From the NCBI GenBank assembly GCA_037043015.1, contig CM073321.1:2113001-2177000 (forward strand): a DNA stretch of 64,000 nt, in the 5' to 3' direction. The translations under genes were made by a program, and so were the position numbers. The DNA is from Bryum argenteum. Lineage: Eukaryota > Streptophyta > Bryopsida > Bryales > Bryaceae. Below, piece by piece: positions 485 through 24,648 of this stretch. Every line of letters starts with the position of its first letter. Position 1 is the stretch's first letter. The notes below the pieces were generated by a model. It was not told where the DNA came from and ran no database searches. It saw only the letters and a list, made by a program, of their open reading frames with translations.

Positions 485-1935
485 TCACTTCTTCAATAAT
501 GCTTCCTCCTTTGCCTTAGCAACTTCTTTTGCTTTTAGCTTGGCCAAACCTCTCATGATATCGTCCCGACGCAAAGAAAAGGAGGTGGAACCTACACCTA
601 CCACATTATAACATGCACTATCGTATCCTACTCTCCCGTATTTTGGTTTTTTTCTTCCAGTGCTATCTAAGGCCTTGTCCACCTTGCCCTCCGAAAGGGA
701 CCGTGTCCCTAGAGGAGGAAGCGGAGACATTGTGGCATTGAGCTTCTTTCTATACATAACCTTAATACTTGTTGGTTGTAGCGGTTCTAGGCAAACAGGT
801 TCGACAACTATAGGATCCCTAGAAAGACTTCCCTTCCGTACATATAGAGATCTAGTGATGACGGTTGCATGTACAGTTGGCTCAAAAACAACAACCTTAG
901 GCGTCTCTTTCACCTGTTGAGGTTCGGGCGTCGCCTTGAAGAGGAGGTTAAGTTTACGGTTGGTGCCCTCTCCAGATGGCCCATGCGGCGAAAAACAATC
1001 CTCTCGACTCGAAGATACGCGCCTCAACGGAGATGGCGAATACACGGGGATTCTGAGTAGACTCCGACTAGGGGGACTATTCACCACGCCATCTTCGGTG
1101 TCCGCTTTGGAATAGTCTATGGCTGCAGATATGGCGTCCGCCGCCGATCGCAACAAATATGGTCTGGAATATGGAAGTAAGTCGCAATTGGCTCCTTCAG
1201 AAACTAATCCGGAGTGAAGACTTCTAGTCAACCCATAAGGACTCTTGGGTTCGAGGATGCTAGTATATCCATCCTGTTACACAAAATGCTTAGAATGAAC
1301 TCCGTCGCACACCAGCAAGCATATTCAAAAGAAGCAAAATTCAGCATGATACACAAACATTGGACATTAATTACAAATAAACATTTAGTCCAAGCTTAGA
1401 TTGATATAATTACAAATAATTATGTTACAAAAAATTGCATCCTAGATAAAATGTTTGTTACCTATGCTAAAAGCACTGTCTGAAGCTGGGACCTAGATCT
1501 AACCTTTCCTGCCACAACAACCATATCCAACCCAAGAAGATTGAACCGCACCCCCATATTCTTCGAGGACTCCTTCATCCTATCGATGAGGTCATCTAAA
1601 GCCAAGTCACCCGCACTCAAAGGATTGACACCAATTCGATGGTTGTCAACATATATTTGTAGGTCACCCGGTTGGCACTTTGAATCTAACCCTTCAAGCA
1701 ACGGTAAGCGTTCTCCCATAAAGAAGTCCTCCTTTCCAACATGAGGATTCCAAGTGTGAACCCAAAAACCACCATGAGGTGGCATTTGGTCACAAGGGGT
1801 TTTGAAGAGCAAGATTAGATGAGAAAACAAGAGGGGAAAAAGGAAGACAAGAAGAAGACAAGGAAATAGGGAAGAAGAAGAAGAGAACCACCGGCCGGAT
1901 GGCTTGGAAGTGGTCTCTACTCTTTTGATTGCCAT
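485..1935 (-). CDS. Two-exon protein of unknown function
   Basis: Two exons on the minus strand: about 1,462-1,935 and 485-1,273, with a GT donor at 1,460-1,461 and an AG acceptor at 1,274-1,275. The first exon encodes a smooth, protein-like stretch beginning MPPHGGFWVHTWNPHVG (Met near 1,784) and containing QPGDLQIYVDNHRIGVNPLSAGDLALDDLIDRM in two blocks. The second is basic and Ser/Pro-rich and ends in a Lys/Ala-rich helix (AKLKAKEVAKAKEEALLKK). An earlier Met at 1,935 would add a hydrophobic segment, but that DNA is a long pyrimidine-type run that could equally be 5' leader. The last codon before the donor is TAG (1,462-1,464), so the spliced frame has a stop exactly at the junction. I do not recognise the family; a transposon-borne ORF is possible. 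Confidence 0.45.
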
Positions 1936-3160: not shown

Positions 3161-3716
3161 TTACACGCTCTCACACCAAGTGCGAAGGAAAACATCGTTG
3201 CCATTATCATTGCAGATGCTGTTAATTGGAGAGTCGTCAATGAGAAGGGTATTGTCAGAGAAAAAGAATGCGCCCCTAATAGGGTTGGTGAACAAGGTCT
3301 CTGATAGGACCTTCATACACATCAATTTCTGACCAACGTGGAAGAAGCGCCCAGGAGAGAGCTCAATCTTTGTACATTGTTTCTGGCTCAAGATCGCGAT
3401 AGGACCTTTTTGTACGGGAGAAGAGGTGGCCAACAATAGCTTCCGCATTCCGCTTTTGCAATGAGGTCCACAGTACGACATTATCTGCCATATAGAAAAC
3501 CTGGCATAGGAATTCCCCAAGATTTGGTCGGGCGAAAACTACCTTAGGACCGACTACAGTTGGAATTCGGTGGCCGAGAATATTTTCCTCCAAATTGTAC
3601 GACCTTTGTCCAACGCGCGTCATCCTCAACGCTGTATGACAAAGTATACCGTTCAAGTCGAAGACAATGTTCAGCCACTTCCTCCGCAGCGGAGGCAGCG
3701 GTATCGGAACGATCAC
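3161..3716 (-). pseudogene. FCP1/HAD-type phosphatase-like protein, frameshifted
   Basis: The N-terminal part (Met near 3,716) contains WLNIVFDLNGILCHT, which matches the HAD nucleophile motif with the usual DxDGxL/T replaced by DLNGIL. It is followed by PKVVFARPNLGEFLCQVF and DNVVLWTSLQKRNAEAI, the usual FCP1-like core order. After about 3,405 the matching sequence continues in another frame and ends with DNTLLIDDSPINSICN, the acidic DDSP motif of FCP1/NIF-type HAD phosphatases. So either a small indel or an unrecognised intron separates the halves. Because the second catalytic Asp of the first motif is Asn, activity is doubtful even if the frame were intact. It lies just downstream, on the same strand, of the ParB-like gene at 4,178-8,726. 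A second HAD-like locus with related features is at 23,560-24,648. Confidence 0.65.
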
Positions 3717-3796
3717 CCTCCTACCCTGGACGCAATCTACCTAATCATTACACAACAAACAAAGATCTGATGATACCTCATAAAATGATGAGATAG

Positions 3797-4177: not shown

Positions 4178-4407
4178 TCACCCAAAATAATAAGGGTCAG
4201 ATGCCTGGACCTGATTGGGATCGTCAGCGGCAGGAGGTTGATCGGAAGGAGGAGGGGGGATTTCTTGTCCAGTGACGGCAATGTCCTCAGCTTCCAACTC
4301 ATAGTTGACCAAATCTACATCCGTTGTGGATGGCGATTGCGACTCCTTCGAACCCCGTACCATGTCGCCATCTACGGTAGCCTTTGAGGCATGTTCAGGA
4401 AGGTCAG

Positions 4408-4698
4408 TGTTACCGTCGGGTCGACGATAACCCTCAGGCTGATCAGCTTCAACAAGGTCATTCCGGTCATGTTGATCCTGATCGGCAAGGATTACAACCT
4501 CATCGTATGCGCCAACTGCTTGGCCAGCTTCTGTAGCAGCAGAAGCTTACTGAGTGAGGTGAGTCGTATCGTCGAGTCGACGATAAACCTCAGGCTGCTG
4601 AACCTTAGCGGCAGCAGTGACGACAAGCTTATCATTACTTGAAGGGATGCTGGCGTTAGAGGATGTCCTAGACATATCGTCGGTTTGACGATAGACAT
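4408..4698. repeat. Three palindrome copies inside the coding tail
   Basis: Copies of the palindrome lie near 4,410, 4,568 and 4,677. They fall in the open frame of the acidic tail of the minus-strand gene. Read on the minus strand they encode GYRRPDGN, VYRRLDD and VYRQTDD, so the DNA palindrome doubles as a repeated peptide. Confidence 0.6.
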
Positions 4699-6259
4699 GG
4701 AAATCATCTCGTCAAGGGTCAGGTAGAGGAGCGCTTATGAACGGCCACGGAAGAGATACAGTGGCGGTTGGGACAGCCTGCAGTGACTGGCTATGAGAGG
4801 CAGCAGCCGCTACAGCAAACTTAGCTATCTGTTCCTGCAACAATTTAAACTGCTCTCTTGCCTCATCTTGAAATGCCTGAAGTTTCGCCGAAGCCTCAGC
4901 CTCAACCTAGGCGACTTCCTCCGTCGCGAGTCGAATTGCGTCTTTAGCATCGGCAAGCTTCTTCTGGGCCGCTAGACGCTCCTTCTCTTCCTCGGCCGCT
5001 TTCTGCGCCTTAGCCTTCCGCCGCTTCTTCATCCTATCTGACATCGGTGTCTCCTTGGCCCAGTCGTCCTTCTTGACCTTTATTGTTTTCCCCTTGACAA
5101 CAAGAGCTTTCATACTGGGTAGGAGAAGATCATCCTCCTCATCATCGCTATTCGAAGAGTGAATATCAAACTCACTATCACTCAAATTGATGATGTCTAT
5201 CGGATCCAGAGGTCGTTTCTCGACCACTGCGGAGATTGTGACATCGTCATCGTTCACGACCTCCTTCTCTTCTGCAGCAGCGTCACTTAAGCGAGCAGCT
5301 TCCGATTCTTCAACAGCTCTCTCTTGTCGTGCCCTAGAAGACTCGACGTTGTCTTGTCCATTTAGAACAACGTCGTCGTTCTGCTGTTCACCATCCCCCG
5401 GGACTAAATCGTCATTAGCCTGCTCCGCGACTGCTTCTTCCATTGAAGCGCCAGCTCCATCATGTTGCTCCCCAATAGCTTCATCCATCGAAGCGTTTGC
5501 AGCATTCTCTTGATCGTCGGACTCATCGAAAGCCTCCCCAAGGACTCCTTCAACTACCTTCCCCACAACTTCTGCAAGGACATCGCCGACAGGCTCCACT
5601 CCGGCGGAATCATTCGGCTGTTCCATGGCAATATCCGCAACGGTATCATTGTATTGAACGATTGCATTGTCACCGTTCGGACTTTCTCCGCTAGGATGTA
5701 CACAAATGCGCGCCGGAGATGGGGCAGGATCATCTCCCAACTCTGATTCTGAGTCTGAAACTGACTTGGCTTCACTCGCCTTTCTTGGTTGCGCCTCATC
5801 GTCGGATTCGTCTGGATTCTCCTGCGCCAAACTCACGTCACTCCCTTCCTCTATCGGATCTAGGGACAATCTAGGGGAAGACGACAACAGTGACATGATC
5901 TAGAAGGTATTTGTCCCGAACTGATCGAGACCTTCAATTCCAGAATCGCTGGAGACATGAGGACCCACACACTCAGTCGCTCTAACAAACGCAAGTAATA
6001 GCTCGTGGGGTGACAGCAGAGGAAAAGCTGGAGTAGGGGGTGAATCAGAGTGCACAATGACGGGCACGCGACTCTTTGGGAGCTCATAGGTGCTCGTGTA
6101 TGGAGACTTCGCAAACATAAAATCGTTCTTGTCCATCCTGTTTGCGACTCCTATAAGTTTAAGGCTTCTTTCACTTTCTTCTGGTCTGTGAAGCCGAAAC
6201 AGTACGCTCCGAACATCTGCATAGAAATGATCACGCAGTCATTTTAAAAGTGTGAAACA

Positions 6260-6497
6260 AGTCGGAATGTTACAGTCGACCTGACGATATCAACTTCCAA
6301 GTCAAGTGTTATCGTCGACCCGACGATATGAGCTAGCGTATGGGGAACATCTCTAACAATTCAATCCCAGAGCTACATACAACACTGGAGGTTATCGTCG
6401 ACTCGACGTTAAAGGCTAGCTAATGGGAACATCACTGTCAATACAATCCGAGAGTTGCGTACAAACTAAAGGTTATCGTCAACTCGACGATAACGAA
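6260..6497. repeat. Four palindrome copies in an intron
   Basis: Copies of the TTATCGTCG-N3-CGACGATAA palindrome lie near 6,267, 6,311, 6,391 and 6,474. They fall in the intron between the methyltransferase-like exon (which ends near 6,512) and the next exon (which begins near 6,220). Spacing is about 45-85 bp. Confidence 0.7.
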
Positions 6498-8877
6498 AGA
6501 TGTGTCATTACCTTTGCCGCCAGAAGAAACTTTGCGCCGGCGTAAACCCCGATCATGTTTTCACTGGGTGAGACACACGCGTGAAGCATTTCAAGGTAAA
6601 ACTCCATGCGGAGTTCACTTGCGTAATGCCTCCACTTCGCCTCTGTATTCTTGGCAATGTTGTTATAGTACAAACAAATTGCGAAGGTGGAATATGTATC
6701 CTTTATCAAGTTCTTTGCTGAACCCGCAAGCTTGTCGCCCTTCTTGGACAAGAAGAGGAGTGTCACTTCCAGAGAAATAGACCGGTTTGACAAGTTGTCT
6801 AGCATTTCTGCTTTAGCGGGGGTGTATGTAGAGACCTTCGTCTCGTATCCGAAGAGCTCCCCAGCAGCAAATGCTGAGGCGACCCGTATGTCGTCCTTGT
6901 TGAGAATGACGAAAAGCCAAATCTTTGGAGTATCGAACTTTGGCTCGAACTCCTCTTGGATGAAGTCCAAGAATGGATCGATGGTGCTTCGTGTGTCGGT
7001 CACGGGGCAATGTGGAATGTTCCGAACATCCAATACAACGAGATTTACTGGCCGAGTAGTGTAGGTATACATAGAACTCTGAACGAACGCCCTGTCGGCC
7101 CAATCTATTCCTCTCATCTGTACTCCTGCACTCCCGGCTAATTGGTATTTCAAGGCCATAATCCTTTTCATCATAAACTATACCTCCGAATGAACGTTGA
7201 CCATATCTTTTTGTCCGCTTATGTCTTGCCTCATTGCGGAGTCTTTTCGTGAAATCCGCAGGTATATGTGCAATAAGATGATTCCATGTAGTCGACGTGA
7301 ACTTGTGCCTAGCTTTCCAGGCCAACCACGTTGACTTCATTACATCACCGCCACTGTCCACGAATTTGAGCGAAGGCTTGAGATTCAAGATTTCCTGCAT
7401 TACCACCTTCTTGCGCTTATGCCGCTCAACCCAATCGGCGCATGACATTTTGTCGGGAACGGGAAATTTTGTTCGGTTCACTAGCATCTTGGGATATGGT
7501 GCATTTCGACCTCTCATTGCGATCTGTTCCGCAACCTTCAGTGTGAAGTGCCTTCAATGCGAAGATGTTGTGCTGGCCGTTTATAATCATGAAATTTCCG
7601 TCCTTTATATATTCCCACTTCGAAGGCTTCCTTTTAAAAAGTTGATTATTCTTATTAACGAGCGTTAAGCAAACCTTCTGTCTCTGCCGGATGTCAACCA
7701 TATTGACAAGACTATCCTTAACACTCTCCATTATGTTCTTCTGAAGGATTTGAATGATGTATTGATCATTCGCAAGAGTGCATTGATTGATGGTCACATC
7801 TACAAGCTCCAAATTGAAGAGGTAGCATTTTGTGTGAATATCCCAAAATTCTTTGTGCGTGGTCGCAATCTTCTCAAAATCGGACACTTCATCTTTGGAC
7901 AATGTGGGGGCGGCTGTTACAGTTGTTATAGCTGAAATATCGCTTCCAGCAGTTGGATCATCAGCAACAGCCAAACAAGAAGCACTCGCGCTCTTCCTCC
8001 GCTTTCGACTTGAGCCTGCAGCTGCTTGAGCAGTGACATCCTTCTTCTCGGCCGCCGATCTGGGCTAACTCGGCTTTGTAGCACGGCTCCTAGATCCAAA
8101 ACCTGTGGAGGTAAGATTTGTCTTCGACTTCGTGAGAGCCGCGCTCTTCTTCTTTGATTTGCCACCAATATTCAGCGTTTTAGTGACAGATTCAGTGGCG
8201 TACGGTAGAGAGAGGTAAAGATTCCATTCCATTGATTGGCAATACTATTTCCAGTATTGTGCACCCAGGGAATATAATTTCATTTTGTAAATTCTTCGTT
8301 GAGGGGTTCCCACTTTGTCCTCATGATGAAGGACATGAGGTTCTCTAGATTGAACCTCGCATGTTTCTTTCTACAATCTAGCACAATTGAGTGCTCGTGG
8401 CCGAGCTCCTTCCCATTGTCATCTACTGCTGTAAGTACAATCACTATGAAGTGATCCCGGACATTCGCGATGATCCAGAATTTCTCGTTCAGGTTCCAGA
8501 TACTGAAAACCTCCGAGGCACCAACCTAAATGCGCAAGAAGACAAAATTCTTGAACTTATTCATTCCGAATGACCACTGTATTATGTTCTCTTGGAATTG
8601 GAAGAGCTTGCCGTATGTGCCTTCCATGTCGCCGAATGCTTCCGGCTCGAAGGAATTCTCGAACGGTACGAGGTGATGACGAGTGACATCGTAGTTGTAT
8701 GTATCTATGGACGTTATTGTCGCCATCTAAACAGAACAAAAAAAGCAACCTTGGAAACTGACTCAAGGAACAAAATGACTTTGTGCACCATGACTCAACT
8801 TCAGGTCTAGCACTAAATTACCATGGGATTAAGCACGTAAAGAGATAAGCAAGTTCTCTGGAGTCCAGAAGTTTAAA

Positions 8878-9840
8878 TCTTGTCGTCGACCCGATTGTAA
8901 GAGGTTACAATTATTTGTGAGACAGAGGAAAACAAGGACCTTCGTCAAACCCTTCTAATGGATTAGAACGTTGCACGTAGATTTCAAAACGTATTCTAGA
9001 GAACACGTACTTGTGCGTGATCTGATGTTTCACCAGACAAGTGATCAACTTCCATGTTTTCAACCAAGACAATTCTAGCGATGCTTCTTGTCCTCCCCAT
9101 TGTTGTAGGCATTCCAAGATATATCATCTCATATCTTCCGATTTAATGCTAGTCCTACAGAAAGTTCCTTATCGTCGACTCGACGATAAGTACTACGGTG
9201 TTCTAATTAGCTCTATTTATGTTTTCTCACATTTTTGTAAGACAGCTTAAACTACAATCGATATCGTCGTGTCGACGATAAGAACATACACTCACTTACA
9301 TATTCCAACATGCTCGGTAATGTTTCTTCAAAATTTGTTTTAACTCCTTTATAATTACCTATTTCTGTGATTACGTATCGATATCTTTTGAATCTTAATG
9401 ATAAGTTTACGCGATTTAGAATCTGCAATCAAACTATATTGTCGGCTCGACAGTAAGCACTGTTTAACACAATCCGGGGCGAGAAACAAATATGTCTTAT
9501 CGTCGTGTCGACGATATCGACATGCTCTAGGCATTCCAGGATTAATCATACCATACCTTGCGATTCGATCCGTTAGGCTTACGGAATGTTCCTTATTGTC
9601 GATTCAGCGTTAAGTAATACAATGTTCAAATTAGCTCCTGTTATCTAACATTTTCATGTGACAACACAAAATACAACCGATATCATCGGATTGACGATAA
9701 ACATAACTACTGATATACATATTTCAAAAGTCATGGTTAAATTTACTCGAATCCTGTTCTATCTTTTGTTTAATGAAATGTTGAAAGTTATCGTCGAGTC
9801 AACGATAACTATGTTTACTTTTATTTTAATAATATGTCAC
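8878..9840. repeat. Array of about eight palindromes upstream of the minus-strand ParB-like gene
   Basis: Imperfect to perfect copies of the palindrome lie near 8,880, 9,170, 9,262, 9,438, 9,499, 9,593, 9,680 and 9,787. Arms are 9 bp (TTATCGTCG and CGACGATAA) around a 3-bp centre that is usually NGT or its complement. The surrounding DNA is AT-rich and much less conserved than the palindromes. The array begins about 150 bp 5' of the minus-strand gene start at 8,726, a promoter-like position. Confidence 0.75.
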
Positions 9841-9849
9841 TACTTATTG

Positions 9850-11337
9850 AAGTACCTCTTTACAACCTAAAACCTCAACTTCCATATGATCTATTCTAGA
9901 CCGACTACTTTCACAACCTTACTTTTGTGAACATAAAAACTGGCATGCGAAGAGATGTGAAGCCATCAATGAAAGACATTCTGGCACATATTCATACCTC
10001 ACACATTTGCAACAAACTGGAAACGCCGCTCCCTACTCTTGGAAGCTAGACAACAGCAATTCAGATCCAACTTTAGGGAACTCCACCCACACTTCAATGT
10101 CAGCGCTGACATCGACAGCTACAACTTATAGATACGCTACCTGCAATCACCAAAGCATTCTTGTAAATGAAGACAAGAAGTCTCGTGAAGAAGAGCACTT
10201 CCAACACAAAAACCATCATTCTCCATTCTTCTTCTTTGACAAGTCGTCGAACAACGGGTACAACCGAAGCCTCACTATGATGACACGCTCGAAACACCGA
10301 ACTGCACGTTACAAATAGTTTCCCGTCCCTATTCAAAGCTCTGGAACAAGCCGCTGATTGTTTAAAGACTTCTGCAATTCTGCTTCTGACTCAAATATTT
10401 AATGCTCTCCCATTTCAGCTCGAACGTTGGTCTAAAAGTTTGGCTGCAACATTTTCATCTCCGCTACTTTTGTTGCAGGGAGGCGCATAATGAATTCTTC
10501 CTGTTTCTCTTACTTTGCAGTACTTTTACGAGGTCTTCGATCACAAAACGGGGGATTGACCGGGGTAGAAAACAGTCAAATAGCTGGTGGGATATATGGG
10601 GCTGAACGAATAAATTAACACAAAGAGGCAGCTTCGGCCCAAGTACTGACAAGGGCGACATGACTGCAAAAATGCGACCGACATTGAACAATTGTGTTGC
10701 TCTGCTTCGCGAGGAATCGAGGATGCCCTATGTGTAATCTATGCCCTTAAGCTGCTACGTGAACCAATTAATCTCATCGAACGAGCTACTATTAATAAAA
10801 AACCGTCCTGAAAACGCAGCCACGATGCCAATCAAAGCACTTTCTGTAATGAAGGCTAACCGGTGCTTGCACTGGAGGAGTCACTACTTCCCAGCAGAGT
10901 GAAAAACAGGGGGGACAAGCAAAGATCAATTCGACAAGGTGTAAGAGATTCGACAAAAATTCCCTAAACCCTAAACCTGCGAGCTCCGAACGAGACGATG
11001 CGAGATCAACCTACCAACCGTTCAAAGCAATTGATTGCAGGCCCAGTGATCACATACCTTGCCAGCAAAGATGGTATCAGATCGCCCAGAAACTCAGTCT
11101 CAATCAACCAGAAAGTGAGCCACTCCACAGAACCCTCGGCGGCGATAAACCCACTCCAACTAGCCACGAGAGCCGCGTGCTCACCTCCAGACTGACGTGC
11201 TTGCAGACTAAGAAAAGCCCGTCGAAGTTGCAGCGATGTGAAGTGAATCCGCGTCGAACGAGCTTCTCCAAGAAACTATAGCCAAGCGGCTGGCTTCAAC
11301 AACGTGGTCAACCAGCATCAGATCTCAGAAGCGAAGT
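9850..11337. other. Long stretch without a recognisable gene
   Basis: Only short open frames are present and none has recognisable family features. Base composition is more balanced than in the palindrome arrays on either side. It may be intergenic host sequence or part of an insertion separating the two palindrome arrays. Confidence 0.35.
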
Positions 11338-12620
11338 GGGTACCAAAATCGAAACCATGACCAAAACAAAGTGCAACTTTTCACAGGAATGGTCCATTAT
11401 ATGATTGAAATTACCTTAATACTAGTTTGTAGTCAAGCAACAAGAAAACAGTACTTGCTTTACGGGGGCAGCCCCAAGCGCAGATTCTTCAACTGCGATG
11501 CTCTTCCAGACAGTTACGAGCTGGATGGGGAGACAATCTGCCGATCATAAACGTCTCAGAGCAAAGTTCCGAGCTGGAATCTCCAATCTCCCTCTGCAAC
11601 CAGCAAGACTCACGTCAATCCATCGTCACATGCCCTAAGAGTAGAAGTTAAGATATATGAAGCATTCATTCAGAGCAGATCACGAGCGATATATCGACAT
11701 GACCACACCACTGGTTCATGTAGTGATAGCTTAAATTACCACAAGCTGAGCTCCAGAAGAGCACCTGAACCCTCCTTATGCCGGGCTCTCCGTAGCTTGA
11801 GCGGATGATGAAGCTTTCCTAACCTGTCATGACAATGGAGCAAATCCGGCATGGTCAGTTCCACCAATCATCCTACATACAAGAAATAATAATCTATAAT
11901 CACAGATGAATATCAGTAAAGGACAACTGCTCGTTTCGAGGCACTTATACATACGACATCAAGCACAACCATCGCCAGCAAGATGCATTCCAAAAGCATC
12001 ACGTAGTGGCTAGTGGTACCAAAATTGAAACCATGAACAAAACAATGTGCAATCTTTCACAAGAATGGTTCAAATTACCTCAATACTAGTTTTAAGTCAA
12101 GCAAAAAAAAGCAGTACTTGCTGCACGAGGGCAGCCCCAAGAGCAGATTCTTCAAGTGCAATGCTTTTCCAGACACTGGAGGGGGAGACAATCTGCCGAT
12201 TCTAAACGTCTGAGAGCTCGAATCTCCAATCTCCCTCTGCAACCAGCGAGGCTCACGTCAATCCATCGTCACATGCCGAAAGAGTCAAAATAGACCACCC
12301 TCCACACAGACTCCTACATCCATTTGAAAGAATCACAAGCCAACCGATCTCCACATACACCAAAGGTCTCAGTAAGAGTATGGAACTTACAAAGGACAAA
12401 GTCTTGTGTTACAAAAACTAATCACAGGAAACGGATCCCGGTCTGTTACAATTGTGTCAACCTTAACCTTGTTCAACACGCAACACCGATGTTCTGTCTC
12501 CACAGCGGCTCATAATTGTCGGTAAACGACCATATTCAAGCTTTAAGTTCCAATCTCCCTCTACAAGCAGCAAGGCTCACATCAGTCCACCTTCACTTGC
12601 CATGAAAGCCAGAATGGGCC
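11338..12620. repeat. Diverged direct repeat of about 300 bp
   Basis: A block at about 11,338-11,640 (starting GTACCAAAATCGAAACCATG and ending CAATCCATCGTCACATGCC) is repeated at about 12,015-12,290 with point changes and small deletions. A third partial copy (TCCAATCTCCCTCTACAAGC...) lies at about 12,547-12,605. The copies are in direct orientation, about 675 bp apart. No coding function is seen in them. Confidence 0.65.
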
Positions 12621-15195
12621 ATATACAGACACAAACATAGACTCCTATGTCCATAAGATGGTCTTACAAGCAACCAACATCAATTTTAGACAATGCACAC
12701 GACCTAAGTGAGGGTCACGAACTTACGAACAACAAGACCTCTTGTTCCAGAAACCGAAAGCGGGATTGACACAAATCCTTGTCTCTCCACCTCTGTAACA
12801 ACTCTGTCAAACTCAATATCGCTCAAACCTGTCCGCATGCATCGAAGATTATAAACATCAAATCCATTGTATACAGTTTTGTGACTTGGGAATGACTATT
12901 TTACAGGTACTTTGCTCCTCCCGAACACAGGCAACCGTTGTTGGAGAATCTGATGTAAGACGAGACGAGGCTCGGCAGGCATCGTGCTGCTCAAAGTAGT
13001 GCGAAACGCCCATTAGTTTGTACAGGTCCTTATTTTACCAAATTCTTTTACCTGTTTGTATTCTAGATAATGGAATACTTTTGTGAAGGCCTGTTGTGGA
13101 CATTGTTCGTGTGAATGAGTGGAGCTTGTGTGCTTGTGTGCAGATCGTAAAAGCAACAGGCTGGATAGAAAATCATCGAAGGAATTGTAGTGCAGGAAGC
13201 CTGACGTTCGGTGCTGCAGGATTTAACTTGAATGCAAAGATTGATTAATATGGAAACATGAGGTTTATTTCAAATAATGGTTTGATGAAGCTGCCGCTTT
13301 TGAGGTGGGGAAGTAGGTAGGTGCAAGCAAATATAGACTGCTAGATGGCACAAGTGGAGCCATGTGATGCAAGTGGAGCAATGTGATGCTTGACTCCGAC
13401 TGCCTACCATTTACTCATTCTCTCTCACTCGTATGAATAATGCAAGGCTTCGTATCAATACTCAGATTGCATAAAAATACGGTATGTACCTGCCGTATGC
13501 TCATTATTTGTTTCTTTACTTCTTGACATTGTGTTCAATTTATGACATTACTTCTATTAATTGCTGATGAAGTGCAGAATAACTAGCCCTAGAGGGTAAC
13601 TTTGAATAGCTAATCAGGAGACAGGTGTTGTCGATTTGGTTTTGAGGAAAAGGTGCTATACACATGATTTTATAATATTTGTAAAATATTTAGCATGATT
13701 TTGAGATTTCAGCATTAATATTGGATTGATAGCTAAGGAGGATGGAGGAGGGGTAATGAGCCCCCTAATTTTTTGATGTATAGACATTAAATACCAAGGA
13801 GTAGGCTTCCAAGGGTAACTTGGGGTCACAGACCTCAAATTTGAATTCAGAATTATCAGAAACAGCCTTGGGAGGTCCCCACGGATTCTAGGGTGTCTCC
13901 TTGGTAGCTGCCACGAACCATTGCCCCGGGACGGGACGGGGTGGGGAGGAGCGGCAGCGGCTGATCGAGCCTCACGACAACACCCGTAGCCGCGAAAGAT
14001 GACGCAACAACAGTATGCTACAAACGAGGCAGCAGTCTAGTGGGGGAGTCCCGGGATGGGCGGCCATGGCGTTTCTAAGAGGTATGGTAATGGCGCAAAT
14101 TTCAACATGGGAAACTTTTGTTGCTAGCCATGGAAGAAATTCGTATGCATGAGTAAAATAATTAGAAGATTCAACACAATGAAATCATAACTTTAAGGTC
14201 CACCTAAAATTTCTTATGGAGTTGAACTTTCAGGTGTTTCTAATAATATGGCCGAGTTTAGAATATTTATGGCGAGTACATTGAGAATTAGGCCAAAAAG
14301 CTATTATGTACCCCTTAGGTTGTTGGATCCAACAAGCCATTATTAGTATTATTTTACTTTAGAGTACCTTACCTTATGTGCTAGTAAGTACCAAAGGGAG
14401 GGTTGTAGTTGTCCCTATTTCAAATGTTAGGTTTAAAAATTTCAGTGAAAAGCTACTTTTAATTAAATGAGGTTGGACGCCTTGATTCAACTTGATATCT
14501 TCAAAAATGACTTTTGAGAGTTTCAAAATAGAAATCTTAACTCCTAAGAGCCCAATCAACCATTTTATGGTTGAACCGAAATTCTAGGCGTTGTAGCAGA
14601 TAAAACAATATTTTTCTTTAAAAAAGTTCAACATTCCAGAAGTTTGGTGAGTTAGGAACCATATCCATTTTGGATTCATAGATTGTTTACAATAAGCCTT
14701 TAGATACAAACAGGGCAAGGTTTTTCCTAGTCTAGGATAATTTACTATTTCGGGAAAGTAATAAGGTTCCTCATAGGTTACTCATGGCGTCTCTTCACTT
14801 TGGATTATAGTGAAGTTTTTATGCTACGTTTACCTTCAATTATTAATAATTGATTTAAAAGGGGGGCATATTTAGAGAATTATTAAAATTTTGAAGTTGT
14901 TTTGAAAAGTTACACTAAATTTTAAATTAGAAGTGTCCAAAGTTTACAAAACCTTTTCAAATAATGATAAGAAAATTATTCTCATAAGGATAAAAACTTC
15001 TAGGAAGAGTCTTATTGAATCAAGGTTTTATCATCATATATACAAATCTCCATGCCCTAGTTTCGTAGTTGCTACCAAGTTAAGAGTTGTCGAGAGCAAT
15101 TCACATCACAGATGATAAATAAACATATGTCAATTTGAGTAAAAATAATGCTCCACGATTCATATGTGCTTTTGAAAGTTACGAAAACTTTAAAA
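12621..15195. other. Non-coding stretch, nothing recognised
   Basis: No reading frame above about 60 codons and no domain or repeat that I can name. The left part has mixed composition with some GC-rich patches near 13,900-14,070; the right part is AT-rich. Confidence 0.35.
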
Positions 15196-15199
15196 GGAT

Positions 15200-15255
15200 A
15201 AAACCTAGGGTTCTACTAACCTAGGGTTCTACTAACCTAGGGTTCTAATAATTAG
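15200..15255. repeat. Short tandem repeat of CCTAGGGTTCTACTAA
   Basis: Three consecutive copies of the 16-bp unit CCTAGGGTTCTACTAA, the last one degenerate. The AGGGTT core resembles part of a plant telomere repeat, but the unit is not telomeric. Confidence 0.6.
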
Positions 15256-15949
15256 TAGAAGCCAAGTTATTGTTTAAAAGCATCACGATTTTCTAAAAAT
15301 ATCATTAATTCAAAGGATATCATGCCCAAATAATAAATGATCAATAATTTGAGCTAATTTCTGAAATTTGGACCAACCGAGCCCTACAACATATCATCGT
15401 CTCTAGCCAAATCGGAACATAGAAGAATGTTAAGTACGTTGGAAGTCCTAGCATCGCAACATGGATAGTACTTATTGTTTTCCTTGTTGTTTTCTTAGTT
15501 TATTTATTTATTTATTTCCAAGAACGAAAAAATTATGACCCACTTAAATGCAACATGTTATTAAACGTTGTCTTTCTATATGAAGTTCAATAGTCTATTA
15601 TCGTAAGGAATTTGATAATAGGTAACCACTATGCAAAATAATTCTATTTATTCATGTTTGTAGATATCAACAACTAAGAATATGTAAAAGTTGTTGGTTT
15701 CTTCTTCAAATTGTCTACTGAAGAGTAATTAACGTCGCGTGATTGAGTAATCGATAGTATTATGGGTTTATGATCATTCATTTTGTATACCATAAGTAAT
15801 TTTTCCATACGTTTGAATTTATAATGGTTTTTTACCATTTTCCCTCCCAAATATACAATTGTAAGTGAAAGTCATTATATATCATGTGCATCGAATGTTT
15901 AGTTATGAGGAGGAATGGTGCACACCTTAAATTCAAACAACATTCCTCC

Positions 15950-16900
15950 ATATCCTACTTAAAGTAAGAAAATAGAGCCAAAACCATTACTATAACGCTC
16001 TAAGAAGGTTTGGAATTATTGAATTTTAAGTGAATAATTCTAAGTGTGGTATTTTAAGATAGAAATTGGTTTATTTTAAGTGAGGTATTCTATGATTAGT
16101 ATTTAGTCAATGCGGTCTCGTCATCTTATATTATTATTTAGTAAATTAAGTGTATAATTATAAGTATGATATTCAATTAATTTCAATGTATCATATTTAG
16201 ATTAGTATTTAGTAAATTAGTTGTAGTAATTTAAGTATAGTATTCAATCCTTCTAAATGTGGTATTTTAAGGTTGGGATTGATTTATTTCAAGTGAGGTA
16301 TTCTAAGATTAGTATTTAGTCAATGTGGTGTGGTTATCTTATATTATTACTAAGTAAATTAAGTGTGTAATTATAAGTATAATATTCAATGAATTTCAGT
16401 GTAGTATACTAAGATTAGTTTTTAGTAAATAGGTCTTGTATTCTATGTATAGTATTCAATTATTCTAACTGTGGTATTCGAGTATTCGGAATGAGTTATT
16501 TTAAATAAGGTATTCTAGTAAATTTACTATGTAAATTAGGTATAATCTTCAATTAATTTACATGAGGTATTGAATGATTAGTATTTAGTAAATAAAGTGT
16601 GGTATTCTAACATGATTATTTAATAAATTTGATATGGTATTCAAAATATAGTATTCAATATTCTAAATGTAGTATTCTATGAATAGTATTTGGTAATTGA
16701 GGTGTGGTATTATAATATTATTAATTAGTAAATTTGATATGGTATTCTACATATAGTATGCAATTATTCTAAATATGGTGTTCAAAGAGTAAAATTGAGT
16801 TATTTTAAGTGTGATATTCTAATATAAATACTTAGTAAATTATGTGTGATATTCTAAGAATATTATTTAGTTTTTCTAAGTGTGGTATTCAAAATTTTGG
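15950..16900. repeat. Degenerate AT-rich minisatellite
   Basis: Irregular repetition of phrases such as AAGTGTGGTATTCTAAG and ATTAGTATTTAGTAAATTA, roughly every 60-80 bp, with many substitutions. It has no coding potential and looks like an old, decayed tandem array. Confidence 0.6.
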
Positions 16901-17467
16901 AGGGTAGTAAGAAGAGAGAGGAGGATGGTAGCGAGGTTAACAACAAAGTCAAGGATGAACATACTTAACCCTTAAACGCCCATAGAATTAACGTCTATAG
17001 TAGGAAAAAGCTCTAAATAGGTTGATTTGGGTTTGGTAAGCATATATTTTTCAGAATATAGATTGTATGAAAATATAAACCCTTTGTAAGTGTAAAGTTG
17101 ATACCTACTTTTTAAAATTAATTTTGTGCTTCAATAGTTCCCATACTATAGAAGATGTTTTATGGTCAAAGTTTGAAAACACTATTTGGGCATGCTCTAA
17201 CCTCTCCTAAAGTCCATTAGATCGCAAAACTACGTAAATTCACCATCAATCAAAAGTGTACTTTCTATCTAATCAAGTTTTTTTTTGTACATGTTAACTA
17301 AATTAGAGGTCATAATCACACTATTCTAATGACAAGTTTTGAGTATAAAACTTTTGTATATCAACACTTTGTAATTATCCTTATTACTTGCTACAATAAT
17401 ACTCATAAAAACCGTCTAGACTTCAAATTGAAAAGTATACTTATCCTTGAATGTAAAATCTTGAACT

Positions 17468-17650
17468 CCTAAACTACCAAAACCCTAAATCGAAACCCTA
17501 AATCCTAAATCCTTAATTCTTAACCTTTAACCCTAAATCCTAAATCAAAAACCCTAAACCCTTAACCCTAAACCGTAAACCCTAAATCCTAAATTCTAAA
17601 CCCTAACTCTAAACCCTAAACCGTAAACCCTAAATCCTAAACCCTTAATA
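17468..17650. repeat. Interstitial degenerate telomere-type repeats (CCCTAAA)
   Basis: About 180 bp of CCCTAAA, CCCTAAAT, CCTAAAC and similar variants, the plant-type telomere sequence in C-strand orientation, mixed with single-base variants. It is interstitial because ordinary sequence continues on both sides. Possible origins are an old end-joining or break-repair event, or a subtelomeric block. Confidence 0.75.
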
Positions 17651-18049
17651 TATAAATCCTGTACTATATAATACACTAAACTTTTAGAAGTTACATTGAA
17701 CTTCAGACCGTCTCCACAAATACTAACGATCACAAATTATAAGAAGATCACTTTTATTGGGATTAATTAAAAAAAATCTCCTTTGAAAAGAACATTTTGT
17801 AATTGGTTCGCATATTCGTTCAAAAGTTCGTTAAGAAATTCGTTATAAAAGCTCGTTGAAGAAATTCGTGACAAAAGTTCCGGGATCCTCATTTAATAGC
17901 CGGATCTATTCTAGAATTTGTAATGGCTAAAGATTCCAGAAATTGACCGTTTGAATAATGGTTTTGGTGGGCAAAGTTTTCCCGCTCTTTTCTCGCACTC
18001 AATCTTGTTTGCGGGTATCCTTCGTGCGCAAGGAATTTTTTTATTCTCT

Positions 18050-18334
18050 TTCCTCCCTTCCTCCCTTCCTCCCTTCCTCCCTTCCTCCCTTCCTCCCTTC
18101 CTCCCTTCCTCCCTTCCTCCCTTCCTCCCTTCCTCCCTTCCTCCCTTCCTCCCTTCCTCCCTTCCTCCCTTCCTCCCTTCCTCCCTTCCTCCCTTCCTCC
18201 CTTCCTCCCTTCCTCCCTTCCTCCCTTCCTCCCTTCCTCCCTTCCTCCCTTCCTCCCTTCCTCCCTTCCTCCCTTCCTCCCTTCCTCCCTTCCTCCCTTC
18301 CTCCCTTCCTCCCTTCCTCCCTTCCTCCCTTCCT
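18050..18334. repeat. Perfect (TTCCTCCC)n microsatellite, about 285 bp
   Basis: An uninterrupted 8-bp tandem repeat of about 35 units. The plus strand is pure pyrimidine and the minus strand is (GGGAAGGA)n. The long frames in every phase across it (LPPFLPSS or GREEGRKG peptides) follow from the repeat and are not genes. Confidence 0.97.
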
Positions 18335-18679
18335 GGGCTGGATTGTTCTTAACTTCAATTGCTCTTAACTTCCACCAAAGGTTAGCTACCATTCCATGAA
18401 ACTTTGTTATGCGATTGTATAGAATGCACTATCCAATATTGTTTTGGAGCATATCGGATTTGTTTGTGTTCATTGTTCTTCGTTTACGCATATTTGTGTT
18501 TAATATTTTGGTTGACTCGATTGTTGTTGTATCTGTTGGAACCTATGTAAAGAAACCTCGTATAAGTCATAACGTAGATTGCGTCATTTACGCTTGTATA
18601 TTTGGAAATGCATCGGGATGTGTGCCATAGTCGGGTCACCTCGGAGGGCGTGCAATCTTCGATTCAGTTGGTACGATGC

Positions 18680-19830
18680 CAACTTTTTGTCGAGTCAACG
18701 CTAACTCTTATATTAACAACTGGACTCATATAATTTCAAAGTGTTTGGTACCATGGCGAGTTATCATCGGGTCGACGATAACTTTCTTGTTTACCACTTG
18801 GTTTATGTAATGTTCAAATGTTTGGTACCGTGGCATGTATCGTCGTGTCGACCATAACTCTTATTTTAGTCATTGGGTTCATGTAATGTTGAAATGTTTG
18901 GTAGATTGGGATGTAATCGTTGTGTCAAAGATAACTCTTATGTTAATCACTGAGTTTCTGTAAGGCTGATGTGTTTGGTACCTTGACATGTTATTGTCGG
19001 GTCGACGATAACTCTGATGTTTACCATTGGGTTCATGTAATGTTGAGAGGTTATATCTAGGTCTGAGCTTCGGGTTGATGTGTTCGGTACCTTGACATGT
19101 TATCGTCGAGTCGACGATAACTCTTTTGTTGGTCACTGGGTTCATGTAATTTTGAAATGTTTGGTAGAATGGTATGTTATCGTCGTGTCGACAATAACTC
19201 TTATGTTAATCACTGGGTTTCTGTAAGGCTAATGTGTTTGGTACATTGATATGTTATCGTCGGGTCGACGATAACTCTGATTTTTACCATTGCGTTCATG
19301 TATTGTTGAAGTATTTAATACCATGGCATGTTATTGTCAGGTCAACGATATCCCTTGTGCTTACCTGTAGGTGCATGTAAAATTGAAAATATTTAGTACC
19401 ACGGCGTGTTATCGTCGGGTCGACGATAACTTTGAATGATTAGGTTATCGGCTATAGCTATTGATTATTTGACACTATTTAGTCATTGAATGGTGCCATA
19501 GTTTTGACATGAGGTAGTATTAGAATCATATTTGTTACATCGCACCGTGGTATTTTGTCTCTTGGACTATGTCTTTTTCTTCAGCTTGAAGCTGGCAATT
19601 ATCGTCAAATCGACGATATATTTTAATGTGTCAAGTATCGGATTTGTGATACTAAACGTCCGTACACTTGCCCGCTTCTATTCTAACGATATATTGATGG
19701 ATTCATGCAATTAATATTATTTTCGGTATTCGTATATTAATCTATTGGATACAATATGATTTGTTTAGAATCCATTGAGAAAGCTTGCATTATTTTACAT
19801 TTCATTGTTATCGTCAACTCGACGATATAT
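18680..19830. repeat. Array of about twelve palindromes in a ~77-bp tandem repeat upstream of the DUF7869 gene
   Basis: Palindrome copies lie near 18,685, 18,760, 18,838, 18,913, 18,990, 19,100, 19,176, 19,253, 19,330, 19,408, 19,598 and 19,808. From 18,685 to 19,420 most sit in a repeated frame of about 77 bp: a GTTTGGTACC-like phrase, then TGGCATG, the palindrome, and a TTCATGTAATGTTGAAAT-like phrase. The best copies are perfect 9-bp arms around GGT or AGT. The array ends about 165 bp before the ATG at 19,995, mirroring the array upstream of the minus-strand gene at 8,726. Confidence 0.85.
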
Positions 19831-19994: not shown

Positions 19995-22866
19995 ATGGAC
20001 AACCATCGGCCTATGGATTTTGCCAGACATATTCCTGTGTTACCTCCATGGATCGCTGTTTGCGAAAGGTTGCCTCGTTCAAAGTGGTATTTGAAGGCAG
20101 TTACTATTCGCAGCAATGACGATATAGACGTCGTGAAAGCACTGTTCCAGAACACGGATCTGACCGATGTTGATGACAGAGTGGATCTTTACGCTCCTCC
20201 TGTCAATCCTTTAGGGGAGGACATAGTGTTTGTCCAAATTGCAGAGTCGTTATGCGAGTTGGAAGTTCCATCCGGTTGGATGTGGTCAGTTCAATCATGG
20301 GATATAAACTAGTCATACTAGATGGTGTTAGTCTCTTTGACCATTACACTACTCATGTGTACAACATGGCCGTCAAGGCTCTCAATAAGCGTGGTCGGAA
20401 AGGTGTACGTTCCTATGAAACCATGCGTGAGAGAGTTGAGGTAGCTGTACCCGCAAAGAAAGAGGCTCTCCTTGCCTCTCAAACAATCACATGAGTTTCC
20501 ACTCTAACATGTTGCGGAAACAATTGCCTTCAACCGTTTTTGCGCGGACAGATTCATGATATTTGCTCACAACTTCATATCAATTATAGTGTGTACTCTC
20601 CAAAGAAGTGCCTTCTTGAGGTGCATAGACAAGTCCACAAGGATTCCGTTGGAAACAAGAGGATTACCTTGAAAGGTAGGGAAGTTTGTTCCATAGCGTT
20701 GTCGACTATTCATGGGATTTCGAGAGCTACCTTCTATAGGTACAAAGATGCGGCGCGAGGGGGATAACAAGCTGAGGTGCACGGAAATGTGGGTTTGAAA
20801 AAACCCAGACTACACACAGTCCAAGCTAATGCGACTCTTTGATCACTTATAGTTTCTGATGTTGACCGAATGCCACACAAAACCAAAACGCTTGTTTCTG
20901 GTGAAAAAGCTCCATCAATAGTTCTACCTTCTGCATTTTGCTGGAGTGATCAGATGAGTCACATCAATGAGATTAATGCAGCATTTGATTTGCCGCCAAT
21001 TTCTTCAACTGGCTTGAGCAATATTTGACAGGCTTCCTTTTTCGAATATGCTGCAAAAGCTAAACGAGACAGTTTCTCTCGTTGTGGTTTGTGTTCAATA
21101 AGTGCAGGCAATTACGAAGTGCTTGTACTCCCCTCCAGTATGCACAATCAAAGTGGACTGAGGCTTTGGAAGCTCACCTGAATTGTGCAAGGGCCCATAG
21201 GGAACTATATTCTTTCAATCGGACGGTCTCTGAAGGCTTTCGTCATAAGATGCTATCTATCATCCATGACAAAATGGATCATTCTAAGACTGCGTCACCC
21301 CACTATTCTCACAAGACCAAAGTTACAGATTCTTACATGAGGATGCCAGTTGCAGTGACGGGAATGATTGCTCATGGTCATGGAGATGTTAAATATGCCC
21401 ACTATGGCCTTGACACATTCGCAACAGATTCCAACCACACCATTGGATCCATTGCGAAGTTGCTACGCGATCTTGAGAAGGCTCCAAAGAATTCGTCACG
21501 CAAGCTATTTTCGGAGGAAAACACGCATACTCCTTTTACCAAGGCTATTTTGAAGAGTTCGGAGATTTGTTTGGACTCCCTCCTTCCTCTACCAGAGGTG
21601 GTGATTCCTGCTAAACCCTTGCCTCCTATATTGGTTTTGCAGCTGGATAATGCTTCTGGTGACAATAAAAATAGATACGTTTTTGCCTTTTGTTCGCTGC
21701 TTGTATACAAAGGCATTTTCCGTGAAGTGTACATCAACTTTCTCATAGTAGGGCACACACATGAAGACATAGATGCCATGTTCGGGCGATGGAGCTTGAA
21801 GGTGAAGGCAAATAACTTTCCAACTATTCCTAGACTTATGAAATCTTTCATGGATTGTGAGACACACCTTGTGATTCCTCATTTGATAGAAGAAGTTTGC
21901 GATTCTAAAGAGTTTGTTGAAGGTTACTTAGGGAGTGGTGGTGATTTTTTAGAAGGTCGTTCAAAATCCCAGCAATTCAAATTCTTCATGGATTCTGACG
22001 GATGGCCACTGGTAGAGTACAAGATTATGTGTACGGATAAGAAGTGGTTGCCTTCGCATGGCAACGGGATCCGGTTGTGGTCAGAGATAGAGGACGGACG
22101 ACCCATAGTTCCAAATGGCGAACCCTTTCCGGTGGAACCTCGTACGTTGTGTACACTTGATGGGATCAAGAAAGGGTTGAACGGTATTATTTCTCACTGA
22201 ACTGGAATAGCAAACGATGATCTCTCTGGAGAATTTAGGCGCAAGAATGATCCTTTAAAAGAGTATTGGAAGGATGTTCGAATAGCTCTTAATGCGGAAC
22301 TCGAGCCTCGGGAAAGAATACTAGACGAATTTTGGTCGGCTACAAGAGTACTTCACAACGAGGCGGATCGTAGGCTTAGAGATGGGAGGCTTCAAGAAGT
22401 GGTTGCAGAGGATGAACCCTATTTTGGACGTAGACGTGATGGTCCACGAGCTTCATTTCGTGTAAATTACGATACTTTTGCAGGGTATTTTGTTGTAGTT
22501 TGCCCAACGGATGATGACGTGAGGCCATTGTGGGTGGCTGGGGCGATAACCAATCCCAATCCGGATCCCGGTCATATGCACATGATCGAGATTCAATATT
22601 GGATGCCTGCAGGTTCTGAACGACACATAAATATGGAAACATATGAAAGATGGAACACAGAAAAAGGGAATTCTTGGCGCGAAGATTGATCTATGAATCC
22701 AACTTGGTCGAGTATAAGTTGTATCATGACAGCTTGGAAGCCACATTTTCAGGAAGGAACTTCAGATCCAAAGGTGGCAATACCTAAGCCTCAAATTGAC
22801 ATCATCAAGGCATCCGTTCAAGCCTTTTCAAGTAACTCAGAACAAGACTCTTCTGCTGCAGAATGA
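19995..22866 (+). pseudogene. DUF7869-type transposase-like protein, decayed by stops and frameshifts
   Basis: Three segments read in order. 19,995-20,312 (MDNHRPMDFARHIPVLPPW) is the N-terminus. After a one-base frame change, 20,252-21,080 carries TCCGNNCLQPF, a Cys-rich motif that probably binds zinc, and GREVCSIALSTIHGISRATFYRY. After another frame change near 21,090, 21,082-22,866 carries the core: KMLSIIHDKMDHSKT, then LQLDNASGDNKNRYVFAF and FLIVGHTHEDIDAMFGRWS. The last two are the hallmark DN...NKN and GHTHEDID motifs of the DUF7869 family, an RNase-H/DDE-like transposase group (family knowledge, recalled). A C-terminal acidic domain ends at TGA 22,864. In-frame TGA codons at 20,492, 20,840, 21,026, 22,198 and 22,687 sit where Trp is plausible, and TAA occurs at 20,765. 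The copy is inactive as read. Confidence 0.7.
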
Positions 22867-23500
22867 TGTGTCATTTTAGTATATAGAGGTTTGTTTTTTT
22901 GTTGACGAAGGGATAGACTAGACTATGGATTTCATTGGTTAGAGATAAATGATTACTTCAAAGATATGTTAGTTGTTGTCGTTATAGAATTTGGCATGGT
23001 CTAAAATTTGCATATACAAATGTTTTTTGATAGCTTGAGAATATTCTCATTATTATTCACATCGACATACCTAGAAGTGTAAGGATTGGTTGTTACTATT
23101 TATAGCATGTTCACATTTCATTGTTTGTTCCAATGTCGTTTATTGATTTATTTTTTTCCTTTTTAGAATAATAGAAAATGTTAGATGTTTCATACTAATG
23201 TTTAGGAACCCTACAAGTGAGGTTTGTAGACGATGGCCTTACATTATTTTGATTGGAATGAAGAAATTCAATGAGAGATAGAGCAACTACATAATTTAGA
23301 GCCTCGTTTTAATAGCTTGTCTCAATTTAATGAACAAATTAAAAGTGTTATTTAAACAGAGTCTCATAAATTTGCAAGTCTCATTTTAATGATATGTCTC
23401 AATTTAATGAACCAATTTAATGATCTAAAATTAGTGAGATTAATGTGAGACTTAAACTTGTCTCATTTTAATGAATATGGCCTTTTTGTATGAATCAGCA
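22867..23500. other. AT-rich spacer, no gene seen
   Basis: AT-rich sequence between the DUF7869 gene and the HAD-like locus. It contains a short diverged direct repeat (TCTCAATTTAATGAACAAATT near 23,320, in two parts, and a second copy near 23,397). No coding signal was seen. Confidence 0.4.
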
Positions 23501-23559
23501 TTTTGCAAGGTCACTCTCTTGTTTTAATGTTATCAACTATTGTCGCTTGGTGTCTTTCT

Positions 23560-24648
23560 GCAGGCGAGCCACTCCAAAAACCCCGCCAAATGATCGCCCT
23601 TTATCAACCCATCACGCATGTGTTGCCTAGTCTATTGCGGTCAAAGCCCAAGTCGTTGAATGTGGTTTTGGAGTTGGACGGGGTCCTCTACTCTACTGCC
23701 CCCTTGTCGGGGGTGCCTGCAGAGTGCCTTCAGTTTCCTGATCCGATACACAAGCCCGTTTATTCCACCACTGTTCCGACCATACTAGCTGACGCTGTCA
23801 TTTACTGTCGTCCCGAGGTTGTTGCGTTCCTCCGGTTACTTAGTTTATTTTGTGACATCTATGTTTGGAGTACTTTGGATGCCAGAGTTGTTCGCAGCTT
23901 GTGCTCCTTCATGTTTGAGGGGTCTAGTGTTGCCCTCACATTGTCATGGCTTCCAACCAATGCGATAACTTCTTGTTGAAGAATTAAGCAAAGGCCACGT
24001 ACCCCAGTACAACGAAGCCCATCCTTCTTAAATACGCGCGGCGCCGGCTGTACACTAGGAGGGATTTTAGTTTCTGTGACCAAAACTTGCTATTTATCGG
24101 GAGTAAACATGAAACCTACGTAGTCGTTGATTCATTGAATACCCTTTTCCGGACTGGTGGAATCATTCAGATCCCGAGGGTCCTAAGGCTCTAAAGCAGT
24201 TACGCGAGATTATTCTCGCGGTTCACTTGAATGGTCCTGATTGCTTCCGTCAGACGATGCGTTGTTGTAGGCCCACGAGTAATGACTTACCAAGGGACTC
24301 GGAGTTGTGTAAACTTTTGATGCATAATCTTCCCTACCTGTGGAACGAGGATGTCGTCACCGGGAAGAAGCTGCGATGAATTCTAATATCTTTGGTATTT
24401 CTTTGAATATTCCGATACTCAGATTTCAAGAATCTTTTTAAATACTACGCTCCATGAATCTCGTTAATTTATACTTGTCTACATATTGCAGGTTTCACGA
24501 CGTAAGTCTCACCTTCCCACGCTTCCTTCGCAACCCTCTATACCAATCTCCAAATTGGTCCCTCTACGGTGTTGGATCCCTCCTTCACCAATGCGGAGTC
24601 CAACACTTTGTCGGAAAGGCAGATGGGATGTTTGCTCTTTATTGCTTC
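23560..24648 (+). pseudogene. FCP1/HAD-phosphatase-like gene, 5' part, interrupted by a transposon
   Basis: An acceptor-like TTTCTGCAG precedes the coding stretch at about 23,561. LNVVLELDGVLYST matches the HAD motif I region (first Asp replaced by Glu: ELDGVL), and VIYCRPEVVAFLRLLS and DIYVWSTLDARVV match the FCP1-like core order. The frame shifts near 23,940 and carries TAA near 23,984; it then continues to HETYVVVDSLNTLF, at the place of the DDSP motif. A later exon (from about 24,490) carries TLSERQMGCLLFIAS and is cut after position 24,648 by the CACTA element. The reading continues in frame at 49,370. Substitution of catalytic acids suggests a non-phosphatase role or loss of function. 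It may belong to the same mobile unit as the DUF7869 gene just upstream, but that is a guess. Confidence 0.6.

Follow-up and report, generated by a model that had tools for sequence, protein, structure and literature searches.

Family-specific 21-bp dyads in DUF7869 transposons of Bryum argenteum: predicted binding sites for an element-encoded protein

The window analysed here is a stretch of 64,000 nt of the Bryum argenteum genome (C1:2113001-2177000; 258.8 Mb, 25 contigs). It contains 27 dyads of the form TTATCGTCG-N3-CGACGATAA, which we call the first word, in four clusters between 4410 and 19828. Alignment to sister copies places all four clusters inside one degraded DNA transposon of about 23.4 kb, with a DUF7869 gene, the presumed transposase, and a divergent gene designated ORF2. 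The arms of the dyads are conserved, as are their places in the element, while their letters are specific to the transposon family, and the dyads are separate from the transposon ends. From these sequence comparisons, we think it probable that the dyads are binding sites for one transposon-encoded dimeric protein, which would recognise its own family and set gene expression or chromatin state.

Results

The dyads were scored over the 18 arm positions, and a stretch with at least 14 matches was taken as a site. The only other scored site in the window is at 38717, with 13 matches, and each of 10 first-order Markov-shuffled windows gave 0 or 1 site at the same threshold. Three sites lie in the 3′ part of ORF2 (4410-4694), four in ORF2 intron 2 (6270-6493, the first starting 18 nt past the exon end), eight, irregularly spaced, upstream of ORF2 (8880-9808), and twelve, mostly with a 77-bp period, upstream of the DUF7869 gene (18684-19828); no strand is assigned to the clusters. 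An earlier note, made from the sequence alone, had described 27 palindromes in four clusters, and both the number and the positions hold. It had also placed the two largest clusters 150-165 bp upstream of two divergent genes, and we find the nearest dyad 166 bp from the aligned start of the DUF7869 gene and 153 bp from that of ORF2. The contrast it drew between conserved arms and variable flanks is likewise borne out in the window, where pairwise identity within clusters is 0.78-0.83 for the arms vs 0.27-0.55 for the 16-bp flanks. Over all 13 arrays compared, arm identity between sites is 0.78-0.97 and flank identity 0.26-0.62. The dyad at 4410 translates as YRRPDGN in an open frame. Beside the dyad array on the DUF7869 side is a perfect tandem repeat of 8-bp units (35.6 copies, 18050-18334).

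The sister copies have both terminal inverted repeats and target duplications, which define them as DNA transposons. Between the inverted repeats, the copies designated E2, E3, and F2 measure 17.1, 17.5, and 19.9 kb. The 4-bp target duplications are exact in 11 of 15 repeat pairs: 10 of 14 (GGAC, ATTT, GTTG, ATGT, AAAA, ATAA, AGAA, ACTA, TTAA, and ACAT), plus E3 (AATT). A degenerate form of the terminal repeat has 51 forward and 58 reverse copies in the genome at ≤1 mismatch. The window copy extends from about 74 to 23484 (no strand assigned), with an approximate left limit. Sister-copy homology stops on the right at 23484, together with the terminal inverted repeat AAGGCCATATTCATTAAAATGAGAC (23460-23484, minus strand), which has 0 mismatches to the query in the window copy's own letters; on the left, homology extends to 168 and a degenerate stretch resembling the terminal repeat begins at 74. 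The right repeat alone is clear in this copy, and no target duplication was recognised there. The gene order is inverted repeat, outward-reading DUF7869 gene, dyad array, a few kb, dyad cluster, ORF2, NIF-like gene, ORFX, and inverted repeat, with the DUF7869 gene (plus strand) on the right of the window copy and the other three genes (minus strand) on the left. At ≥14 matches, there are 25 sites in E1, 31 in E2, 26 in E3, and 27 in the window copy, and F2 holds 30 at ≥13 matches.

The exact first word occurs 127 times in the genome, and the reversed control not at all. The earlier note had proposed a genome-wide search to see whether the palindromes flank these gene families, and most do: 52 of 59 exact dyads with ACC or GGT as the central triplet have a listed terminal repeat, or a match to ORF2 or DUF7869, no more than 20 kb away, with 100 of 109 terminal repeats listed and 150 of 1,811 DUF7869 candidates scored. 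Random points on C1 gave a mean of 5.3 of 47 near such features. The window's family is concentrated on C1 (44.1 of the 258.8 Mb), which has 86 of these 100 terminal repeats, 47 of the 59 dyads, and 68 of the 70 ORF2 matches of at least 37% identity; C1 may be a sex chromosome or otherwise non-recombining. Two loci, L062 and L063, have exact first-word dyads, one as a single site and the other as a group of three.

A search with one ORF2 exon gave 97 genome matches, 27 of which are relatives of 28-31% identity on C1-C10. Three of these 27 (L059, L060, and L061) were fetched blind to their dyad content, and all three contain a second word, TTATCCCCG-N3-CGGGGATAA, which forms an array upstream of ORF2 and also occurs in the two introns of that gene. 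A second array of this word is found further upstream in L059 and L060, in the latter beside a DUF7869 N-terminal match. The ORF2 proteins of the TTATCCCCG elements are 30-43% identical, and the second word occupies the same promoter and intron places as the first; it has 965 exact genome copies and none of the reversed control. Two more words emerged when the DNA already retrieved was scanned blind for dyads that recur, and their neighbourhoods were examined at one locus each. The third, TTCAACTCG-N3-CGAGTTGAA (995 exact copies, reversed control 0), lies upstream of another DUF7869 gene, whose product is 58% identical to that of F2 over the best stretch and 29-42% elsewhere. The fourth, TTTAGCTCG-N3-CGAGCTAAA (6,193 exact copies, reversed control 0), lies upstream of a DUF7869 gene of 31% identity in a second transposon family (L025 2090-3047), 2.0-2.9 kb to the left of window position 1. 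Thus, each of the four words is found beside a DUF7869 gene.

The blind scan found recurrent dyad clusters at odd spacers only, all of them registers of the 9-N3-9 frame except for one AT-rich row, and none at even spacers from 0 to 10. The frame TT.....CG-N3-CG.....AA is common to the words, and the inner letters change in both arms together. The whole site set appears to switch word together between families. A frame that is kept while the inner letters shift in both arms is most simply explained by one factor that reads all of the sites. Separate local functions would not account for it as simply.

The places of the dyads relative to the genes are also conserved. Upstream of the DUF7869 gene, 10 of 13 first-word loci have their nearest dyad 159-166 bp from the aligned start, and the other three have it at 233, 233, and 269 bp. 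Upstream of ORF2, all 11 loci compared have their nearest dyad 57-188 bp from the start. In ORF2 intron 1, a dyad is found 21-22 nt past the exon end in all seven first-word loci with an aligned exon end, and 26 nt in at the second-word loci (L060 and L061 by alignment, L059 by eye); the window copy has no dyad at this place. In intron 2, all eight first-word loci, with the window among them, have a dyad 18-25 nt past the exon end, and the three second-word loci have one at 45, 45, and 66 nt. The largest arrays, of 7-18 sites each, sit upstream of genes. F2, an intact relative, has 8 further sites, with 13-15 of 18 matches, within its coding exon of 791 amino acids. The dyads in coding DNA (L056 1839-4211, the C-tail exon of F2, and window 4907-5899), which are partly in 72-bp steps, translate as repeats resembling R-x-x-D-D.

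The central triplet is R-N-Y, mostly R-S-Y, in 148 of 201 first-word and 60 of 74 second-word sites, and the middle base is G or C in 194 of 201 and 73 of 74, respectively. The dyad is thus centred on a single G or C. Within the arms, CpG bases are changed in 268 of 1,880 cells (14.3%) vs 53 of 1,410 (3.8%) for the inner A/T bases, and the second arm base is changed in 52 of 470. The excess of CpG changes in these sequences suggests that the dyad sites were once cytosine-methylated.

We considered whether the dyads could be sites at which the transposase binds for excision and insertion, similar to the subterminal repeats of other elements. The occurrence of all four words next to the gene of the presumed transposase is in keeping with this explanation. 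However, in F2 and E3 the first dyad is 3,507 and 3,654 bp from one end, and the last is 2,964 and 3,044 bp from the other. Those end zones of about 3 kb, which the dyads avoid, instead contain a AAATTGAGAC-type motif, repeated mainly at the DUF7869 end: at ≤1 mismatch, there are 6 and 5 copies in the first 300 bp of F2 and E3, with further copies once in the last 300 bp and twice in between. No dyad in these two elements comes much closer than 3 kb to either end, and the dyads are probably not end sites. Since they are present in introns and coding DNA as well, we consider a role as transposase sites unlikely.

The dyads might alternatively act as RNA hairpins near 5′ splice sites and in 5′ leaders, for example in the regulation of ORF2 splicing. 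This would fit their short distances past the exon end (18-25 nt for the two introns in first-word loci, 26 nt for intron 1 in second-word loci) and also the change from GT/AC to CC/GG between families, which is fully compensated. Furthermore, the 235 unique first-word sites show 37 compensated arm changes, compared with a shuffled mean of 26.3, a number reached in 4 of 500 shuffles. However, 17 of the 37 concern the outermost base, a position that also shows 29 uncompensated double changes; another 17 are double CpG transitions, and 3 are others. Among the inner double changes, 20 are compensated and 14 are not, and 17 of these 20 are the two-sided CpG transitions. In the window, 45 arm mismatches are in one arm, 2 are compensated, and 1 is a double change without compensation, while shuffling gives a mean of 2.15 compensated. 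Thus, the earlier note's impression that imperfect copies often keep their dyad symmetry does not hold in the window, and the count of covariation between arms that it had proposed comes out at chance there. We therefore rejected arm covariation as evidence of RNA structure, as the wider excess comes mostly from outermost-base and CpG changes. With the largest arrays located upstream of genes, a hairpin function seems quite improbable to us.

The DUF7869 gene is at 19995-22689 on the plus strand of the window (PF25273, E = 1.8e-45), with the start set by alignment and the end approximate; homology to the F2 protein reaches 22386, and this copy is broken by stops. ORF2 (4178-8726, minus strand) was located by tblastn with sister-copy exons and is also broken; its two predicted introns are taken from the sister copies, on the basis of homology breaks and GT/AG ends. 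Its layout is an N-terminal domain, a 'DGKFxIINGQH' region that is ParB-like by motif only, a possible methyltransferase-like region, and an acidic C-tail. The C-tail stretch IINLSDSE (IIDLSDDE in E3) resembles a SUMO-interaction motif. A NIF/FCP1-like phosphatase gene fragment lies at 3161-3740 on the minus strand (PF03031, E = 2.3e-06), with DLNG in place of DxDx. ORFX (485-1276, minus strand, by tblastn to the E3 and F2 copies) is conserved in the sister elements and belongs to no known family: the E3 copy gave no Pfam match at E ≤ 1, and the F2 copy gave one below the cut-off, to Tox-MPTase3 (E = 0.0052, 17.4 of 25 bits). A further NIF-like fragment, at 23494-23979, just outside the right end of the element (E = 0.00079, below the Pfam cut-off), is perhaps a remnant of an older element.

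Only the DUF7869 and NIF-like proteins of the element scored above the cut-off in family libraries. No Pfam family reached it for ORF2, and neither ORF2 nor the DUF7869 protein had a significant hit in profile searches against solved structures. There was no match in NCBIfam and none better than E = 0.16 in PHROGs, and the DUF7869 protein had no match among viral contigs. For a methyltransferase in ORF2, there was no Pfam match, none of the 15 genome matches to PF01555 fell at the listed ORF2 places, and an alignment to another methylase-like open reading frame covered 28 columns (E = 0.084, probability 0.7%). A low-copy open reading frame resembling DpnA/CcrM adenine methyltransferases was seen at L064 (C4:20498151-20498760; E = 6e-4 to a solved structure, three close copies). 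It came from the PF01555 matches and has 8 genome matches in all. The four dyad words are absent from the 610 bases at L064 and from 560 bases at a second PF01555 match, L065. L064 is no proof that ORF2 is a methyltransferase.

These searches bear on a third alternative, a parS-like partition or iteron replication system serving an element with extrachromosomal phases. The dyads are iterated, as in ParB-parS, and are near a gene with a DGQH-type motif that recalls ParB; moreover, the Sola1-1 transposon of Ectocarpus is described as having a ParB-like/methyltransferase accessory gene (PMC12477816). However, ParB_N (PF02195) had no match in the genome at E ≤ 1, in a search whose control matched in 11 of 14 genomes. 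The sites do not share a single locus but occur at promoters, in introns, and in coding exons, and the elements are integrated, with target duplications. The sequence of parS also differs from that of the dyad. A system of this kind is thus very unlikely. Neutral amplification of tandem repeats with a chance palindrome is least credible of all, since the periods near 54 or 77 bp in several arrays and the partly conserved flanks (0.43-0.62) in 3 of the 13 arrays compared are outweighed by flanks of 0.26-0.42 vs arms of 0.78-0.97 in the other 10, by the fixed intron places, and by one geometry in four words.

Discussion

The reading that we favour is self-recognition by a protein of the transposon. 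Since the site set appears to switch together, one element-encoded dimeric protein probably reads all of the sites. We propose that this protein would bind the dyads across both divergent promoter regions, the ORF2 introns, and part of the coding DNA, that it would thereby recognise the DNA of its own family, and that, once bound, it would set how both genes are expressed or the state of their chromatin. The excess of CpG changes, taken with the location of the sites over introns and the two promoter regions, points towards self-recognition as a counter to silencing. The likeliest form would be counter-silencing or self-activation, as for VANC of Arabidopsis on VANDAL elements. Of the two candidate binders, ORF2 and the DUF7869 protein, ORF2 is the more likely. 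The earlier note's idea that a dimeric protein would bind the palindrome, in connection with the DUF7869 and 'ParB-like' gene pair, is well supported by the association with the element and by the family-specific letters at the same places. Its two suggestions for the binder fare less well: a transposase acting at the ends is disfavoured by sites that start about 3.5 kb and stop about 3 kb from the ends of two elements, where another motif is found, and a parS-type dyad by the ParB_N search and the spread of the sites.

A wider version of this proposal, which we offer tentatively, is that giant DUF7869 transposons may use a modular address code. In such a code, the 9-N3-9 frame would be fixed, the inner letters would be interchangeable, and a self-encoded reader would mark or un-silence only its own family, with some 25-31 sites per element having been switched in concert several times. 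A plausible reader would be ORF2, as an accessory protein of the ParB/methyltransferase type described for the Sola elements of algae.

Several observations weigh against self-recognition by one protein. Seven of the 59 dyads have no listed element within 20 kb; one of these, L021, is an element remnant by alignment, and L062 and L063 have no gene homology in the 2 kb around them. E1-E4 are about 95% alike, so they count as one lineage and not as independent cases. The similarity of the words does not follow that of the DUF7869 proteins exactly, because 4 of 9 arm bases differ between the third word and the first, even though the protein of the third is the closest. The evidence that ORF2 accompanies its dyad word covers the first and second words only. 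Conservation is poor at the outermost base of each arm, which is changed in 179 of 470 cells. Finally, a recognised DNA-binding domain was found in neither ORF2 nor the DUF7869 protein, and the structure predictions were of low confidence, with a mean predicted local distance difference test score of 31 for ORF2 (14-row alignment) and 37 for the DUF7869 protein (12-row).

VANDALs are Mutator-type elements. In the accounts cited here, the VANC motif of VANDAL elements is found in introns and intergenic DNA, in tandem repeats, and is specific to the family (PMC5735166), and VANC is presented as self-recognition against silencing (PMC5735166, PMC10398659). The Bryum element is similar in that copies of its short motif, frequently in tandem, lie in introns and intergenic DNA, and in that related families carry different motifs, here four dyad words (PMC5735166, PMC10398659). 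However, the VANC motif is asymmetric and of 8-9 bases, whereas the motif here is a 21-bp 9-N3-9 dyad. Furthermore, the Bryum element has a DUF7869 gene and 4-bp duplications, unlike VANDALs, with their MURA-type transposase and long duplications; 7-12 bp is given for Mutator target duplications (PMC10741241).

A second likeness is to Sola elements, for which 4-bp target duplications, as seen here, and presence in moss are reported (PMC10741241). Sola1-1_Ec32 of Ectocarpus is described as a giant Sola-1 transposon of 21.5 kb with a divergent ParB-like/DNA-methyltransferase accessory gene, and its authors propose that such accessory proteins may act on their own transposon by binding and modifying it (PMC12477816). 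The accessory gene is opposite in strand to the transposase in both elements, a likeness by description and not by sequence, and the passages on Sola1-1 mention no binding sites for the accessory protein (PMC12477816). Unlike that gene, ORF2 has no significant ParB or methyltransferase match. Unlike ParB-parS, the sites here are at promoters, in introns, and in coding DNA. We found no published description of the dyads in the open-licence literature searched, a scope outside which most subscription papers fall.

To our knowledge, there are few cases, VANC among them, in which it is known in molecular detail how a selfish element distinguishes its own DNA from that of the host and of sister families. 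If confirmed, the dyads would be an apparently independent case of self-recognition in another class of transposon, with thousands of sites and several ready-made specificities. The co-evolution of a DNA-binding protein and its set of sites would then be directly testable, and the dyads would provide candidate targets for the ParB/methyltransferase accessory proteins reported in the giant transposons of algae.

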